From the IMG/VR virus record IMGVR_UViG_3300037485_000549, positions 1-33,084 of that record: a DNA stretch of 33,084 nt, one strand, 5' to 3'. The DNA comes from a virus. This document shows, piece after piece, positions 15,134 through 33,084 of the stretch. Every line of letters starts with the position of its first letter. The stretch's first letter is position 1. Both the position numbers and the translations under genes were made by a program. Under the pieces are notes generated by a model, which was not told the origin of the DNA, searched no databases, and saw nothing but the letters and a program-made list of their open reading frames with translations.

Positions 15134-15934
15134 ATGAGAGTAGAATTAGTAAAAATCAACAAGGAAGTAGCAGAACAAATGCTAAGCATGAATATAAACA
15201 ACCGTAAATTTAAAGATGCGATTGTAACTAAATATGCGAACGAAATGCTGAAAGGCAATTGGAAAAACGACACTGGAGAATTGATTAAATTATCAAAAAC
15301 AAATAAATTGTTAGATGGTCAACATCGGTTAAGAGCAATTATAAAGGCAAATGTTGAATTAAGTATGTATGTTGCATTTGATTTGAATGATGATGTATTT
15401 GTAGTGTTAGATTCTGGAACAACAAGAACATCTAATGATGTATTTCATATTGCGGGGGCTCAATACTCAAGCTTAATTCCTCCAATGATACAATTTTCTC
15501 AAGCATTAAATAATGGGAATAGAAGTAACAGAGGGAATATTACATTGACAAACGTAGAATTGTTAAATAAATTTAAAGAAAATGAGGATTATTATTTAGA
15601 TATTGCTTCTAAAACATACGGCTATTATGTACAATTTGCTAAGATAATGAGCCCCACTTTAATCGGTTCGTTTATGATTCATTTTAATACTAAAAGTTCA
15701 GCAGATTGCGAGTTATTTTTTAACGAATTATGCACTGGTAGAGATGTGACAAACAACGTTATTTATTTGCTTAGAAACAAATTGATAGAAGATAGAACAG
15801 GCACAAGTAAAATGGATAGAGAGCATAAAAATGCACTAATAATTAAGGCTTGGAACTTCTACAGATTACGACAAGACGTAAAAGTATTAAGATACAATAA
15901 AGACGTTGAAAAATCTTTTCCAATTGCTATTTAA
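15134..15934 (+). CDS. ParB/sulfiredoxin-fold protein with DGQHR motif
   Basis: The 266-residue protein has a ParB-like N-terminal domain. Residues about 44-70 include GELIKLSKTNKLL and the signature DGQHRLRA (61-68), where related proteins bind or hydrolyse nucleotides or nick DNA. The C-terminal half is helical. Such proteins are frequent in phages and can act in DNA modification, segregation or regulation. It ends just upstream of a consensus promoter and a structured RNA cassette. The exact activity cannot be told from sequence. Confidence 0.75.
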   Translation: MRVELVKINKEVAEQMLSMNINNRKFKDAIVTKYANEMLKGNWKNDTGELIKLSKTNKLLDGQHRLRAIIKANVELSMYVAFDLNDDVFVVLDSGTTRTSNDVFHIAGAQYSSLIPPMIQFSQALNNGNRSNRGNITLTNVELLNKFKENEDYYLDIASKTYGYYVQFAKIMSPTLIGSFMIHFNTKSSADCELFFNELCTGRDVTNNVIYLLRNKLIEDRTGTSKMDREHKNALIIKAWNFYRLRQDVKVLRYNKDVEKSFPIAI

Positions 15935-15956
15935 TTAGATATTATTTGTATATTTG
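15924..15956 (+). promoter_or_regulatory. Promoter of the structured RNA cassette
   Basis: TTG (15924-15926), a 22-bp spacer and TATATTTG (15949-15956) match the host-type consensus and share the -7 octamer of the two other early promoters. The predicted start is near 15962, immediately before or at the first stem of the RNA. Confidence 0.75.
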
Positions 15957-15961
15957 TAAAC

Positions 15962-16055
15962 GTTACGATTCGACATTATAGTAACGAAAAGGAATTTTAA
16001 TTAACCTTTATACAAAGTAGGACGTCGAATCCCTATTGAGTATGAAGGTTTTTTT
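15962..16055 (+). ncRNA. Candidate structured small RNA or attenuator leader
   Basis: Between a consensus promoter and an intrinsic terminator lies about 94 nt without a reading frame but with several exact complementarities. CGTTAC (15961-15966) pairs with GTAACG (15981-15986). GATTCGAC (15967-15974) pairs with GTCGAATC (16024-16031). TAGG/CCTA (16018-16021, 16032-16035) encloses the latter in a loop. AAAGG (15988-15992) can pair with CCTTT (16005-16009), which is also part of the terminator stem. The set allows competing folds, as in an attenuator, or a compact tertiary fold, as in a trans-acting RNA. No known RNA family is recognised. Confidence 0.6.
16003..16055 (+). terminator. Intrinsic terminator of the RNA cassette
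   Basis: AACCTTTATAC (16003-16013) pairs over 11 bp, with one G-U, with GTATGAAGGTT (16040-16050), and seven T follow (16049-16055). The 26-nt loop carries the GTCGAATC box that matches the 5' part of the RNA. Read-through would feed the replication genes that start 46 bases downstream. Confidence 0.75.
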
Positions 16056-16100
16056 ATGTACTTAACTTTTTACGTGTTTTTAAATAAAATGCGATTTATT

Positions 16101-16313
16101 ATGGCAAATGTAAAATTGATTTTTTGCGGAAACGAAGAAGCAAAACAAGAGGAAAAACAATTACAGCTTTATGTTAACACGGATTACTTTTTGTATATTC
16201 AATTAGAAGATAAAAGTTCTAATTACGAATCAATGCAATGTACTGTTTTAGATAAAGAAACAGCAATTAAATTAAGTAGGGAGTTAAAAAAACAAATTTC
16301 TTTAATGCATTAA
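16101..16313 (+). CDS. Small hypothetical protein before the replication genes
   Basis: The start at 16101 (MANVKLIFCG) is preferred to 16056, which lies directly behind the terminator T-run. The 70-residue product is acidic in the middle, with beta-like segments and a helical C terminus. It ends two bases before the DUF6291 gene. Function unknown. Confidence 0.62.
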   Translation: MANVKLIFCGNEEAKQEEKQLQLYVNTDYFLYIQLEDKSSNYESMQCTVLDKETAIKLSRELKKQISLMH

Positions 16314-16315
16314 TT

Positions 16316-16990
16316 ATGGCGGAGGATAAAAAATCATTTGTTTTGTATTCAGACCAACGTTCAATTATTGAAATGCTGCCAGATGATAAGGCAGGAATAC
16401 TATTAAAACATATTTTTGCGTACGTTAATGATGAGAATCCAATCAATAACGACCCTTTGATTATGCTTGCATTTGAACCTATTAAGTTGCAGTTTAAACG
16501 TGATTTAATAAAGTGGTTAGCAACCAAAGAGGGGAGAAGTACAGCGGGAAAAGCAAGCGCAGAAGCTCGAAGATTATTAAAAGAAAGTCAACAAAGTTCA
16601 ACAAATTTAACAAATGTTGATTTTGTTCAACAAGAGTCAACAAATCCAACTGTTAATGTAACTGTTAATGATACTGTAACTGTTAATGTAATAAATAAAA
16701 TAGATTATCAAGCGTTGCTTGAGACATTGAATCTTTCTTTTGGTAGAAGTTTTCAAGTTATTAATAAAAAAGTACGTGCAAGTTATGAAGCTCGTTTAAA
16801 AGAAGGCTATACAAAAGACCAAATAAGAGACGCAATAAATAACTGTAAAATTAATGATTATCTTAAGGAACAAAATTATCAATATTGTACACCCGAATTT
16901 TTTAGTAGAGCCGAAACCTTAGATAAATATTCAAACGTTACAAAAAAAGATAAGGTTATTTATGCATCTCACAATAGAATAATAGACTGA
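16316..16990 (+). CDS. Replication protein, DUF6291 plus Phg_2220_C-like
   Basis: Of 224 residues, about 1-75 match DUF6291 (KSFVLYSDQRSIIEMLPDDKA, then HIFAYVND), a domain of phage replication initiator-like proteins. A Val/Asn/Thr-rich hinge (about 108-127) leads to a C-terminal domain (about 135-210, SFQVINKK, then ARLKEGYTKDQIRDAI and TPEFFSR), which matches the conserved C-terminal region of phage replication proteins (Phg_2220_C). It overlaps the ATPase gene by one base, consistent with an initiator or helicase-loader acting with that protein. Confidence 0.78.
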   Translation: MAEDKKSFVLYSDQRSIIEMLPDDKAGILLKHIFAYVNDENPINNDPLIMLAFEPIKLQFKRDLIKWLATKEGRSTAGKASAEARRLLKESQQSSTNLTNVDFVQQESTNPTVNVTVNDTVTVNVINKIDYQALLETLNLSFGRSFQVINKKVRASYEARLKEGYTKDQIRDAINNCKINDYLKEQNYQYCTPEFFSRAETLDKYSNVTKKDKVIYASHNRIID

Positions 16991-17985
16991 TGTACAAGAG
17001 ACTTGAAAACGTAAAGACCGAATTAGACAATTTCAGAGTAAATGGAGTTGAAAGAGGAAAGGATATAGGTTGGAGTTGGGAACAATTACCACTTACTATA
17101 AAAATAAAATGTACAACGTTTATCGGAGCAGCTCCTGCAAGCGGAAAAACAGAATGGTGGTTTGAAATATTAATCAACTTGAGCTGTTTGCACGGATGGA
17201 ATCACGTTATTTATTCTCCTGAGACTGGCGACTCAAAGGATATTTTCTCAGAACTTTGTCATAAATACATAGGTAAAAAATATGTTAACGGCGAAAATTC
17301 TATGAATGAATCGGAAAGAACACGTGCTGAATACTTTATCAACGAACATTTTATAGTTATTGACCCAATAGATGAAGATTTAACCGTAAATAAATTCTAT
17401 GAAATTGTTGATAATATTGAGAATGATTTGAATATGACTATCCACACAACAACGATTGACCCGTGGAACGAATTGACAGAACAATTTGAGCCTAATGATT
17501 TAGGTAGAGAGGACAAATATTTGAGTAGAATTTTAGGATTTGCACGAAAAAACGCCCGCAAAAAGAACCGACATAATTGTATTATTACACACGTTAGAGA
17601 CCAGATGCCTGTAACAAAAGACGGAGTAACATATTATCCACCACCAAGCGCGCGTGATTTGGCTGGGGGTCAGGTTTGGTTTAGAAAAGGTTTATTAATG
17701 ATTACACTTTGGCGACCACCAGCTGGAGTTGCTGAAGACGAAAGCGGATATTATGCGGAAAACGAATTGCATATTAGAATTGCTAAATCGAAACCAAAGG
17801 GAGTGAGTAAAAATGGAACTTACAAAATGTTTCTTAATATTGAAAAATATCAGTATTATGTAAAAGATTATTCAAACAAAGAAATTTATGCAGATAGAAA
17901 AAATCACAATCAAAAAGCAGTTACTGAGCTGAAAAGTTTTTCAGAATCTTACCACACTTTAAACAATCAAAATTTACCTTTTTAA
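16990..17985 (+). CDS. DnaB-like replicative helicase ATPase
   Basis: The 331-residue product is a RecA-fold ATPase of the DnaB C-terminal type without the usual N-terminal domain. Walker A is GAAPASGKT at residues 46-54. The following VIYSPETGD near 77-85 suits the conserved Glu region, and residues about 195-205 contain CIITHVRDQ, a DnaB-like H4 region. It should unwind DNA at the phage fork with the upstream protein as partner. The last residues, NNQNLPF, resemble an SSB C-terminal tip and match the end of the OB-fold protein at 21473-21814. Confidence 0.82.
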   Translation: MYKRLENVKTELDNFRVNGVERGKDIGWSWEQLPLTIKIKCTTFIGAAPASGKTEWWFEILINLSCLHGWNHVIYSPETGDSKDIFSELCHKYIGKKYVNGENSMNESERTRAEYFINEHFIVIDPIDEDLTVNKFYEIVDNIENDLNMTIHTTTIDPWNELTEQFEPNDLGREDKYLSRILGFARKNARKKNRHNCIITHVRDQMPVTKDGVTYYPPPSARDLAGGQVWFRKGLLMITLWRPPAGVAEDESGYYAENELHIRIAKSKPKGVSKNGTYKMFLNIEKYQYYVKDYSNKEIYADRKNHNQKAVTELKSFSESYHTLNNQNLPF

Positions 17986-18643: not shown

Positions 18644-19172
18644 GGAATGTAAGCAACCATTTGAACCGAGATTTAGTACGTTAGAAAAATACTGTTGGAA
18701 CAGCGACTGTAAGTTAATTGAAGCACTACAAAAACTCGAACAAAAGAAAAAAAGCGAATCAAAGGAATGGAGCGAAAGGAAATCCAAGTTGAAAAAAGAT
18801 ATGCTAACCTCAAAAGATTACCTACAATTGGCGCAGCAAGTTTTTAATAAGTGGATAAGAAAACGTGACGAGGGTTTAAACTGTATAAGCTGCGGAAAAG
18901 TAATCAAAGAGGGCAACTGTGATGCAGGCCACCTTTGGAGCGCAGGAGGACACGCAAACATTCGATTTAACGAACTTAATGTAAATAGTCAATGTTCTAG
19001 ACCTTGCAATAAAGATTTAAGCGGAGACCCGAATAATTACAGAATTGGATTTATACGAAAATACGGAATAGCCAAACTAGAATATTTAGATAGTATTGCA
19101 CACGCTGAAAGGAAGTATAATATTGAAGAGTTGAAAGAAATAATTAATATTTATAAAAATAAATTGAAATGA
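18630..19172 (+). CDS. ninG: NinG recombination protein
   Basis: The 180-residue product matches NinG (Rap) of lambdoid phages, a structure-specific Holliday-junction endonuclease. It has an N-terminal zinc ribbon (Cys4, Cys7, Cys22, Cys27), a basic helix, and a second Cys/His region from CISCGK near 89 through CDAGHLWSAGGHANIRF to CSRPCNKDLSGD. It overlaps its neighbours by 14 and 4 bases. Its final codons lie in a 17-bp repeat that recurs after the next gene, suggesting that the gene following it was inserted. Confidence 0.88.
   Translation: MKKCKECKQPFEPRFSTLEKYCWNSDCKLIEALQKLEQKKKSESKEWSERKSKLKKDMLTSKDYLQLAQQVFNKWIRKRDEGLNCISCGKVIKEGNCDAGHLWSAGGHANIRFNELNVNSQCSRPCNKDLSGDPNNYRIGFIRKYGIAKLEYLDSIAHAERKYNIEELKEIINIYKNKLK
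19154..19170. repeat. 17-bp direct repeat, left copy
   Basis: TAAAAATAAATTGAAAT occurs here at the end of ninG and again, exactly, at 19984-20000, three bases after the PAPS-reductase-like stop. The two copies bracket that gene. Confidence 0.75.
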
Positions 19173-19981
19173 TAACAGTCAACAGCATATCAGGTGGCAA
19201 AACGTCCTCATATTTAGCGGTTAATTATCCAGCTGATTATAATTTATTTTCTTTGGTTTCAGTTGAAGATAGAAAATTAACACCCATTGACAAAAAGTTT
19301 GTACAAATTATTTCAGATAAGATTAAAAAAGAATTTATCGGAACAGTTGAAAAAGACCAAACGTTAAAATGCGTTTTAGATTTGGAACAAATATTAGGCA
19401 CTGAAATAAAATGGCTATGCGGAGATTCATTTGAACAAATAATTAAAAAAGCCAGTGGATATTTACCTAATGTAATGGCGAGGTTTTGTACGTCTGAAAT
19501 GAAATTAAAACCTATCGCTGAATATTGCAGAAACGAAATAAAAGAAATTGTTTCCATGCGTTTAGGCATTCGCTACGATGAAGAAAATAGAGTTAATTAC
19601 GAGAATACTGATTTTAGATTTAATATCGGCAAATCAGAAAATGGTAGAAATAAATGGTTAACTGAAAAATATAGAGAATTAGATTATCCTTTGGTTGATA
19701 ATAAAATTGAACATTATCAAATTTATAAATGGAGTTTATCTTCTGGAATAGATTTTCCGAATGATTCGAATTGTGTAGGATGTTTTCATAAGCAAGTTCA
19801 ACAATTAAGAAAAAATTGGATTGATGAGCCTATTAAAATGCAATGGTTCGCAGACCAAGAAATAGGAAGGAAAAAGTTTAAAAAAGAAATGAGTTTTAAC
19901 CAAATTAAAACAATTGGTATTCAACAAGATTTTATTTTCGGTGGTGGTTCCAATTGCAATAGTGGAGGTTGTACTGATTAA
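19169..19981 (+). CDS. PAPS-reductase-like PP-loop protein
   Basis: The 270-residue product belongs to the adenine-nucleotide alpha-hydrolase-like superfamily: the PP-loop SGGKTSS is at residues 8-14, and Cys pairs occur late (NCVGCFHKQ, and GGCTD at the end) that could hold metal or sulfur. Phage members are usually annotated as phosphoadenosine phosphosulfate reductases, and relatives (DndC) act in DNA phosphorothioation. Here the true substrate is unknown. The gene starts in the ninG stop and is flanked by 17-bp direct repeats, as expected of an acquired cassette. Confidence 0.72.
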   Translation: MITVNSISGGKTSSYLAVNYPADYNLFSLVSVEDRKLTPIDKKFVQIISDKIKKEFIGTVEKDQTLKCVLDLEQILGTEIKWLCGDSFEQIIKKASGYLPNVMARFCTSEMKLKPIAEYCRNEIKEIVSMRLGIRYDEENRVNYENTDFRFNIGKSENGRNKWLTEKYRELDYPLVDNKIEHYQIYKWSLSSGIDFPNDSNCVGCFHKQVQQLRKNWIDEPIKMQWFADQEIGRKKFKKEMSFNQIKTIGIQQDFIFGGGSNCNSGGCTD

Positions 19982-32081: not shown

Positions 32082-32987
32082 ATGAGTATAGGATGTAATT
32101 GCGCAAGTGGATTAAGTAATACAGGGAGACCTAATTGCGTAAGTCTTCAAAGCGTAACAAGTAAATTAATAATGGTTCCTTTATTTGGAGCTGATGGAAC
32201 GGCAAATTTTATCGATTTGACTTCACCACTTCCAACTTGGAGTGATTTAATCAATGAAGCAGACGATACAAAGCGTTGGTTTCCATTACCAAACTTTGAG
32301 AATGTAGAGCTTCCAAAGGCGGATAGCCAATTTGAAGAGGCTAACAGTGGTCGTATGGTATTTTTACGTCAAGGTAAGCGTTCATTCGCTGGTGAATTAT
32401 GGGCAGAAGATTCAACTCCTACATTGTTAGGTAAGTTACAAAACAATCGTTGTGTTGATTTCGGTGTTTATATCGTTGATGTAAATGGTAATTTAGTAGG
32501 TTCAAAAGTAGGCGATAGATTATATCCAATCGCTGTTGATAATCCTTCATTTAATCCAACATTCACATTTGCAACTGATTCAACAACGCAAAAAATTATG
32601 TTAGGATTTGACTTCGACAGATTATTTGATGAGTCTACAATGTACATGATAACGCCAACTGAAGCTGGAATCAATTTCAATGATTTAACAGGTCTTATTG
32701 ATGTTAATTTGACTGATTTAACTGTTGTTGCAACAAGTGTAACGTTTGATGCTGTATTGGATTATGGAACGGCTTTGAACCCTATTAAATTTAGTGGTGC
32801 AATTTCTGCTGATTTCGCTTTGTATAACAATACAACCTCTGCAACGGTATCTGTGACGGCTGTTGAAAACTTACCTTTAGAAGGTAATTACACACTTACT
32901 TATATTGCTCAGACTGCTGCTGATTCTTTGACTTTGTCAATAGTTAAAACAGGGTTTGATGGTGAAGTAAGTTATTTGGCTGTATAA
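32082..32987 (+). CDS. Major tail (tube) protein candidate with Ig-like C terminus
   Basis: The 301-residue product has a Cys-rich N terminus (MSIGCNCASGLSNTG), a tube-like body (about 20-185) and a C-terminal Thr/Val-rich domain (about 195-301) with Ig-like character. Place between neck and tape measure, size and a following small coupled gene fit a tail-tube protein of a long-tailed phage. The C-terminal part is present twice in the window because of the terminal redundancy; the copies differ by one Leu/Ile exchange. Confidence 0.72.
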   Translation: MSIGCNCASGLSNTGRPNCVSLQSVTSKLIMVPLFGADGTANFIDLTSPLPTWSDLINEADDTKRWFPLPNFENVELPKADSQFEEANSGRMVFLRQGKRSFAGELWAEDSTPTLLGKLQNNRCVDFGVYIVDVNGNLVGSKVGDRLYPIAVDNPSFNPTFTFATDSTTQKIMLGFDFDRLFDESTMYMITPTEAGINFNDLTGLIDVNLTDLTVVATSVTFDAVLDYGTALNPIKFSGAISADFALYNNTTSATVSVTAVENLPLEGNYTLTYIAQTAADSLTLSIVKTGFDGEVSYLAV

Positions 32988-33084
32988 TGTTTGTCGAAGC
33001 TGGAAAAATACAATTTGCTGTTATTCATTTAACTGACAAATCGTTAAAAGAGGCTCAGTTGCTGTTTAAACACGTTAACCCTTT
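32631..33084. repeat. Right copy of the 454-bp terminal redundancy
   Basis: This is the second copy of bases 1-454. It covers the last third of the tail-tube candidate and the first 98 bases of the following small gene. If the circle is closed, position 33084 continues at 455. The sequence cannot show whether the virion DNA is truly terminally redundant (headful packaging) or whether the overlap comes only from the assembler. Confidence 0.93.
32987..33084 (+). CDS. Start of the small gene after the tail-tube candidate (partial)
   Basis: The first 32 codons of the 53-residue gene seen whole at 357-518; the window ends inside it. Its ATG overlaps the preceding stop by one base. Confidence 0.7.
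   Translation, partial: MFVEAGKIQFAVIHLTDKSLKEAQLLFKHVNP

Follow-up and report, generated by a model that had tools for sequence, protein, structure and literature searches.

The CI RNA of phage P4 and the C4 antisense RNAs of P1-type phages (Rfam c4, RF01695) are short leader RNAs of phage operons that carry self-complementary boxes. In the leader pseudoknot of ColIb-P9 repZ, loop-loop pairing controls a replication gene; the packaging RNA (pRNA) of phage phi29 carries two mutually complementary hairpin loops that co-vary while the sequence drifts; and the RNA antitoxins of type III toxin-antitoxin systems are laid out as promoter, pseudoknotted RNA, terminator, and gene. In the Salmonella prophage Gifsy-1, a single promoter yields both a terminated small RNA, IsrK, and a read-through mRNA (PMC4825925). 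IsrK pairs over ~30 nt with a downstream open reading frame and activates its translation in trans (PMC4825925).

The cassette that we describe here lies among replication genes on the plus strand of a 33,084-base virus record, the whole of which we call the window. It has ~100 distinct relatives, drawn from uncultivated viral contigs and from the named Flavobacterium phages FL-1, FCL-2, V186/FCV-1, and FCOV-S2. Its predicted leader RNA of ~94 bases represents a previously uncatalogued family, probably acting as a switch or a scaffold. The family is widespread in the phages of an understudied phylum and stands just ahead of the DNA-replication genes; its presence in cultured Flavobacterium columnare phages makes it testable now. 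The window has no match at gathering scores in Rfam 15 (which includes c4, pRNA, and the riboswitches), nor have 13 loci of the three types described below (A, B, and C) at E values up to 1, and a literature search over largely open-access papers found no earlier description.

Anatomy of the cassette

The elements of the locus, in order along the window, are these.

15134 to 15934, plus strand: upstream gene, 266 aa, phrog_5931, function unassigned; its 3' end lies 14 bases before the -7 box
15924 to 15926, plus strand: TTG, on our reading of the sequence a possible -33 element, with a 22-nt spacer to the -7 box
15949 to 15956, plus strand: -7 promoter box TATATTTG (TAnnTTTG), Flavobacterium sigma-A type
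15961 to 15986, plus strand: hairpin H1 (from fold and covariation), with a 6-bp stem, CGTTAC (15961 to 15966) and GTAACG (15981 to 15986), and a 14-nt loop of K plus ATTATA
15967 to 15974, plus strand: box K, GATTCGAC, in the H1 loop, kissing partner 1 (from covariation)
15987 to 16002, plus strand: A/T-rich linker with AAAAGG, of which AAA is conserved
16003 to 16050, plus strand: terminator hairpin H2 (from the fold, and from helices 3 and 4 of the covariation alignment)
16003 to 16013 and 16040 to 16050, plus strand: outer stem of H2, AACCTTTATAC and GTATGAAGGTT, 11 bp, enclosing exactly 26 nt
16017 to 16021 and 16032 to 16036, plus strand: inner stem of H2, GTAGG and CCTAT, inside the 26-nt loop
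16024 to 16031, plus strand: box K', GTCGAATC, in the apical loop of H2, kissing partner 2 (from covariation)
16049 to 16055, plus strand: T-tract (T7) of the intrinsic terminator, found throughout the family
16101 to 16313, plus strand: first gene 3' of the terminator, 70 aa, MANVKLIF..., its start placed by comparison with relatives L011 and L039
16316 to 16990, plus strand: DUF6291 protein, replication-initiation-like (Pfam PF19808, E 1e-20; phrog_428, replication initiation protein, E 8e-10)
16990 to 17985, plus strand: primase/helicase-like protein (phrog_239, E 9e-12)

A first-pass annotation of the sequence had proposed a self-contained cassette of promoter, structured RNA of ~94 nt, and terminator, and both the sequence and its homologues bear this out. 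A promoter is present as claimed, but of another kind than a consensus of the sigma-70 style, matches to which stand at background in a scan of the region (51 against 52.0 expected), so that we rejected that reading. The credible cassette promoter is of the Bacteroidota type (TTG, 22 nt, TATATTTG). The TTG may be the -33 element of the Flavobacterium promoter consensus. The TAnnTTTG -7 box has been mapped in Flavobacterium psychrophilum (PMC9723704). Membership in the family calls for this box within ~16 nt 5' of H1, where TATATTTG lies in the window, and the exact promoter core AGATATTATTTGTATATTTGT was found in 11 viral contigs, 7 of which carry the cassette.

The succession CGTTAC, box, GTAACG, box that had been described for the RNA is present with every box in its place, as is the terminator said to hold the last box in a 26-nt loop. 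From H1 to the T-run the RNA measures 94 nt. The fold of 15959 to 16054 has an energy of -24.6 kcal/mol (z = -4.24), a value that none of 200 shuffles equaled, and the minimum-energy structure keeps K and K' unpaired in two separate loops. K' occupies a 10-nt apical loop, owing to the inner stem within the larger terminator loop, and the H1 loop is complementary to it at 8 of 8 positions; computed on its own, outside the leader, the 8-bp K-K' duplex has an energy of about -9.7 kcal/mol. H2 alone reaches -18.7 kcal/mol, and its 11-bp outer stem followed by T7 is the signature of an intrinsic terminator. K and K' occur once each, with no second exact copy in the 33,084 bases.

The product of the first gene, whose frame on the open reading frame reading has a longer version beginning at 16056, matches no family in Pfam or PHROGs. 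A phosphoadenosine phosphosulfate reductase-like gene (phrog_424) lies at 19169 to 19981, within the replication region. The ends of the record (1 to 454 and 32631 to 33084) are 97.6% identical across 454 bases, as in a terminal repeat or a circular overlap with strain variation, so that little of the phage genome is likely to be missing.

Relatives and the covariation of the two loops

A descriptor that asked for a pair of hairpins whose loops are complementary, applied without the promoter or homologues, was not significant, with shuffles scoring equally high; chance is excluded instead because the homologues keep the complementarity of K and K'. We searched for them with a pattern blind to K, consisting of the promoter and the H1 scaffold with ten free letters at the position of K, which gave at least 92 usable distinct matches. 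Among the matches listed, 53 of the 60 with an H1 stem of at least 4 bp had at least 8 nt of downstream loop complementarity (one of the 53, L158, resembles a chance match by eye), and none of the 32 without an H1 stem exceeded 6 nt. Shuffled downstream sequence reached 8 nt in ~0.6% of controls, and swapping loops among members that differ in K gave this length in 0.8%. A second scaffold brought 21 members with 8 to 9 nt of complementarity, against at most 7 in non-members, and a third brought additional members with 6 to 8 nt. Scanning all loci (~5 Mb) with promoter and descriptor together returned 103 distinct candidate cassettes, a handful of them doubtful by eye; shuffled sequence (1.5 Mb) returned 2.

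Other anchors lead to the same architecture. Four contigs that share the upstream gene of the window all have a near-identical promoter, and among them the RNA can be aligned in L001 only, L002 and L003/L004 having other sequence in the same architecture. At loci anchored on the helicase, the cassette is present in at least 20 of 22 evaluable cases, three of them judged by eye. As conservation does not extend to the sequence of the RNA, comparison of the 401-bp region with named phages by blastn gave no match. Scans of genome contigs, whether anchored on proteins or by pattern, recovered no true member (five pattern matches lacked the architecture by eye), and a coarse first pass of model R1, run with no positive control over 395 genomes from the phylum to which G001 belongs, gave no match.

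Members fall into three types. In type A, the H1 loop consists of K and ANTATAG, followed by the AAA linker, the outer stem, a TGAA/GGAT internal loop in which tandem G-A pairs are possible by inspection, the inner stem, K' in the apical loop, and the T-tract. The TATA of the H1 loop is nearly invariant, and ANTATAG in H1 and TGAA in H2 are conserved while unpaired. TGAA, usual in type A, is not essential, given that the window and L001 carry CAAA instead; a close relative, L053, has TGAA, and set beside its relatives the window is a derived member whose CAAA is a derived copy. In type B the H1 loop is K alone, and in type C, K has 6 to 8 nt and K' is followed by CGAAAG. The family is thus defined by a common plan, and we infer a single ancestor for types A, B, and C.

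The comparative evidence for the RNA fold comes from model R1, which contains H1 and H2 and leaves out the K-K' pairs, and from an alignment of its 79 matches (61 distinct); the window, one of the model's seeds, scores 73.1 bits. Kinship among the sequences inflates the covariation counts that follow, and the cells are not independent events. The whole structure is paired in 91.7% of cells, as compared with 65.7% in shuffled alignments and 34 to 53% in slid ones, with two-sided changes in 24 of 27 pairs. The H1 stem (helix 1) is 99.0% paired, with two-sided changes in 4 of 5 pairs; the kissing helix, of which one pair was omitted for a misaligned column, reaches 98.8%, and 6 of the 7 pairs counted vary at both positions. 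Type A alone holds 18 different K 8-mers (19 with L158) among the matches listed, and the other types hold other sequences, which brings the family to dozens of matched loop sequences. Because so many different K sequences stay complementary to K', there is little doubt that the pairing is genuine across the family. The complementarity had been read as functional, with a lack of compensatory changes in homologues named as what would speak against it; the covariation check was run, and compensatory changes were found.

The same alignment bears on whether the inverted repeats might act as DNA, that is, as an origin, a recombination site, or a protein-binding site. Such repeats are present in the DNA, and replication genes adjoin them. 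In the nested stems, however, G-U pairs outnumber A-C pairs by 124 to 10 (87 to 1 in the core of the outer stem), a bias that makes sense only for plus-strand RNA, and the locus has a promoter and a T-tract. We regard a DNA-level element as having next to no probability. Selection, as the great excess of G-U over A-C pairs indicates, is acting on the plus-strand RNA and not on the DNA.

Alleles, downstream genes, and a third copy of K

Comparison of phages at one locus shows that the cassette changes independently of its surroundings. The K of FCL-2 is CATCCAC and that of V186/FCV-1 is GTAGAGAG, at a single locus where the upstream 120 bases are 93% identical and the RNAs are 52% identical, against a shuffled mean of 50%. 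The window shares 95 to 96% of its upstream 120 bases with L002 and L004 and 49 to 55% of its RNA; across all one-locus neighbors, 93 to 97% of those upstream bases are shared and the RNA sometimes cannot be aligned. Since the upstream sequence is near-identical while the RNA stands at shuffled identity, we read these cassette alleles as exchanged whole; selection favoring difference and the usual mosaicism of phages could each account for it. R1 matches FL-1 at E 3e-4, its K reading CGTCTCAC; FCOV-S2 and V186 are unlike in the sequence flanking K, and FCOV-S2 carries a second cassette. Two cassettes, each with a different K, occur in L033 (298 to 394 and 6245), L074, L146, L152/L159 (in L152 at 1350 and 3074), L257, and G411 (34907 and 43963), which are too few for a firm test of K avoidance.

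The order of cassette and gene is likewise seen by comparison. A same-strand ATG frame lies downstream in 75 of the 78 members examined, the gap between T-tract and ATG being 0 to 46 nt in 73 of them (median ~19) and 97 and 128 nt in the other two. A nearby same-strand start codon is to be expected for any RNA gene, because phage gene clusters are unidirectional; the TAnnTTTG box, for its part, is absent from every gap between T-tract and next start codon in the members examined. The downstream genes are not constant: many encode DUF6291 or replication-initiator-like proteins, others small proteins of 59 to 88 aa, and others endonuclease-like proteins. At many loci (the window at 16101 to 16313, L039, L054, L088, and L120) the first genes encode unassigned proteins of 59 to 88 aa whose C termini loosely follow LDKxTAIxLSxEL or a pattern like it. 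Cassettes stand directly 5' of endonuclease-like genes at L074:8432 (minus strand), L146:7086 (minus strand), L257:4649, L289:453 (minus strand), and L164:6414-6509; by motif, judged by eye, these resemble HNH (NUMOD4-type) or GIY-YIG homing endonucleases, and the cassette may travel with mobile endonuclease genes.

In some members a third, exact copy of K lies just 5' of the start codon (L014, L021, L031, L032, L238/L316, L313, L325, and L327), and L035 has a copy with one change that still permits G-U pairing. At L031 and L032 H1 is weak or missing, and the other loci with an exact third copy are of type C. The third copy usually sits inside a small H1-like hairpin and co-varies with K and K' (GGACAG, GTGCAG, GAGCAG, GGGCAG, ACAACCAC, and CCGACCAA). 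A match to K of at least 6 nt was found in the downstream region of 9 of 105 cassettes, 8 of them before the start codon, as compared with 1.5% for exchanged K; a partial 6-nt match in L144, 69 nt into the gap, is likely due to chance and was set aside. The window, like types A and B throughout, has no third copy. These copies show that in one sub-type the K code extends to the putative translation start. In L031 (4216 to 4340) and L032 (3985 to 4110), the 5' end of the predicted transcript carries a near-copy of the downstream start region (e.g., TAATAACAACCACAATGAA), much like a decoy translation start.

Proposed function and comparison with known systems

On balance we favor reading the cassette as a promoter-proximal leader, folded by the kissing pair, in which transcription stops early and which controls access to the genes for replication or to other early genes. 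RNA polymerase would start a few bases 5' of H1 and transcribe H1, the linker, and the terminator hairpin; K in the H1 loop would pair with K' in the terminator's apical loop over ~8 bp to give a compact kissing-loop RNA, and the short transcript of ~94 nt would end at the T-tract. Polymerases reading through would express the replication genes immediately downstream, and the kissing pair would set either the formation of the terminator or the recognition of the leader, making of it a transcription gate (an attenuator). In one sub-type K' would have an alternative partner in the copy of K at the start codon, permitting translational or in-trans feedback. Transcription, early termination in vivo, and read-through as the point of control are what we infer from the arrangement: because the next start adjoins the terminator with no promoter between them, the first gene should require read-through, and the promoterless gap together with the terminator is the main argument that the leader gates expression.

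The first-pass annotation had offered a small RNA or an attenuator of the replication genes, and that frame was the right one, the next genes encoding DUF6291 and primase/helicase-like proteins, but the competing-hairpin form that it gave the attenuator finds no support in the family. In that form an upstream AAAGG would pair with CCTTT and prevent the terminator. The two motifs do occur in the window; linker and arm share at least 5 nt of complementarity in 23% of members, however, against ~24% for shuffled linkers, and no conserved antiterminator pairing with the terminator arm was found in the family. K' lies in the terminator's loop and not in its arm, bracketed by the co-varying inner stem, so that kissing and termination can coexist. 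This speaks against both a competing-hairpin attenuator of the classical kind and the AAAGG proposal; we hold such an attenuator to be very improbable. The same coexistence, with the conserved unpaired nucleotides, suggests that the terminated RNA may itself be a product. A rival reading, possible if unlikely, is that it acts in trans as a small RNA upon host or phage RNA or protein, the downstream genes being mere neighbors reached by leaky read-through. Its discrete 5' hairpin and 3' terminator, its conserved unpaired motifs and compact kissing fold, and the high variability of the downstream genes all suit this reading, whereas K and K' are single in the window, leaving no perfect target in the phage, and the RNA is almost flush with the next start codon, leaving no space for a separate promoter.

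Allele swapping raises a different prospect, a self-recognizing circuit in which released leader RNA would pair, through K or K', either with leaders still being transcribed or with the copy of K at the start codon, giving allele-specific control of copy number or superinfection after the manner of P4 immunity. The replacement of RNAs at one locus beneath near-identical upstream sequence, the different K of each cassette where one phage has two, and the three-way covariation of K, K', and the third K are what such a circuit might leave behind, but any structured RNA may show compensated drift in its helices, genomes with several cassettes are few, and the third copy is confined to a sub-type; we think the circuit rather improbable. 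The more novel idea that K and K' form an RNA identity code, by which each phage's leader would recognize a leader or message only if it shared the same K, with allele-specific feedback or exclusion between related phages, without protein, as the outcome, and by which swapped cassettes would change identity, we put forward tentatively, as unlikely though conceivable. An antitermination or recruitment element like put or nut, in which RNA polymerase or a phage protein reads the fold of the leader and passes the terminator, would fit the position at the 5' end of a transcript ahead of an operon and the near-invariant unpaired residues. We consider it highly doubtful, given that the element contains its own terminator, that types A, B, and C share the architecture and not all of the near-invariant residues, and that no candidate protein is linked to the cassette. 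A terminator loop locked to the first hairpin of its transcript by a fast-changing, always matched code is an unusual design, and it may point to a novel means of timing phage genes or of distinguishing related phages.

Set against the known systems, the cassette shares single features with each. Unlike the type III antitoxins, it is a single unit with no tandem array, and its downstream genes encode replication and varied proteins in place of one toxin family. Unlike the phi29 pRNA, it has no Rfam match, possesses a terminator, and precedes genes for DNA replication and not for packaging. The repZ system of ColIb-P9 belongs to a plasmid, acts on translation, and depends on an antisense RNA transcribed separately from the other strand, whereas here the partner is the terminator loop. 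In its K-K'-K order type C is reminiscent of the P4 boxes, and target boxes on both sides within one leader are found in type C, the window having one K; the cassette differs from P4 and C4 RNAs in having no Rfam match and in holding K' within the loop of an intrinsic terminator. IsrK is the nearest worked-out analogue, a terminated leader that interacts with its own read-through message. Pairing of leader and translation region in the manner of IsrK is absent from the window, where no K lies near the start codon, and present in type C; the conserved pairing of the cassette joins two loops of the leader itself over 8 bp, with a partner at the start codon in a sub-type only.
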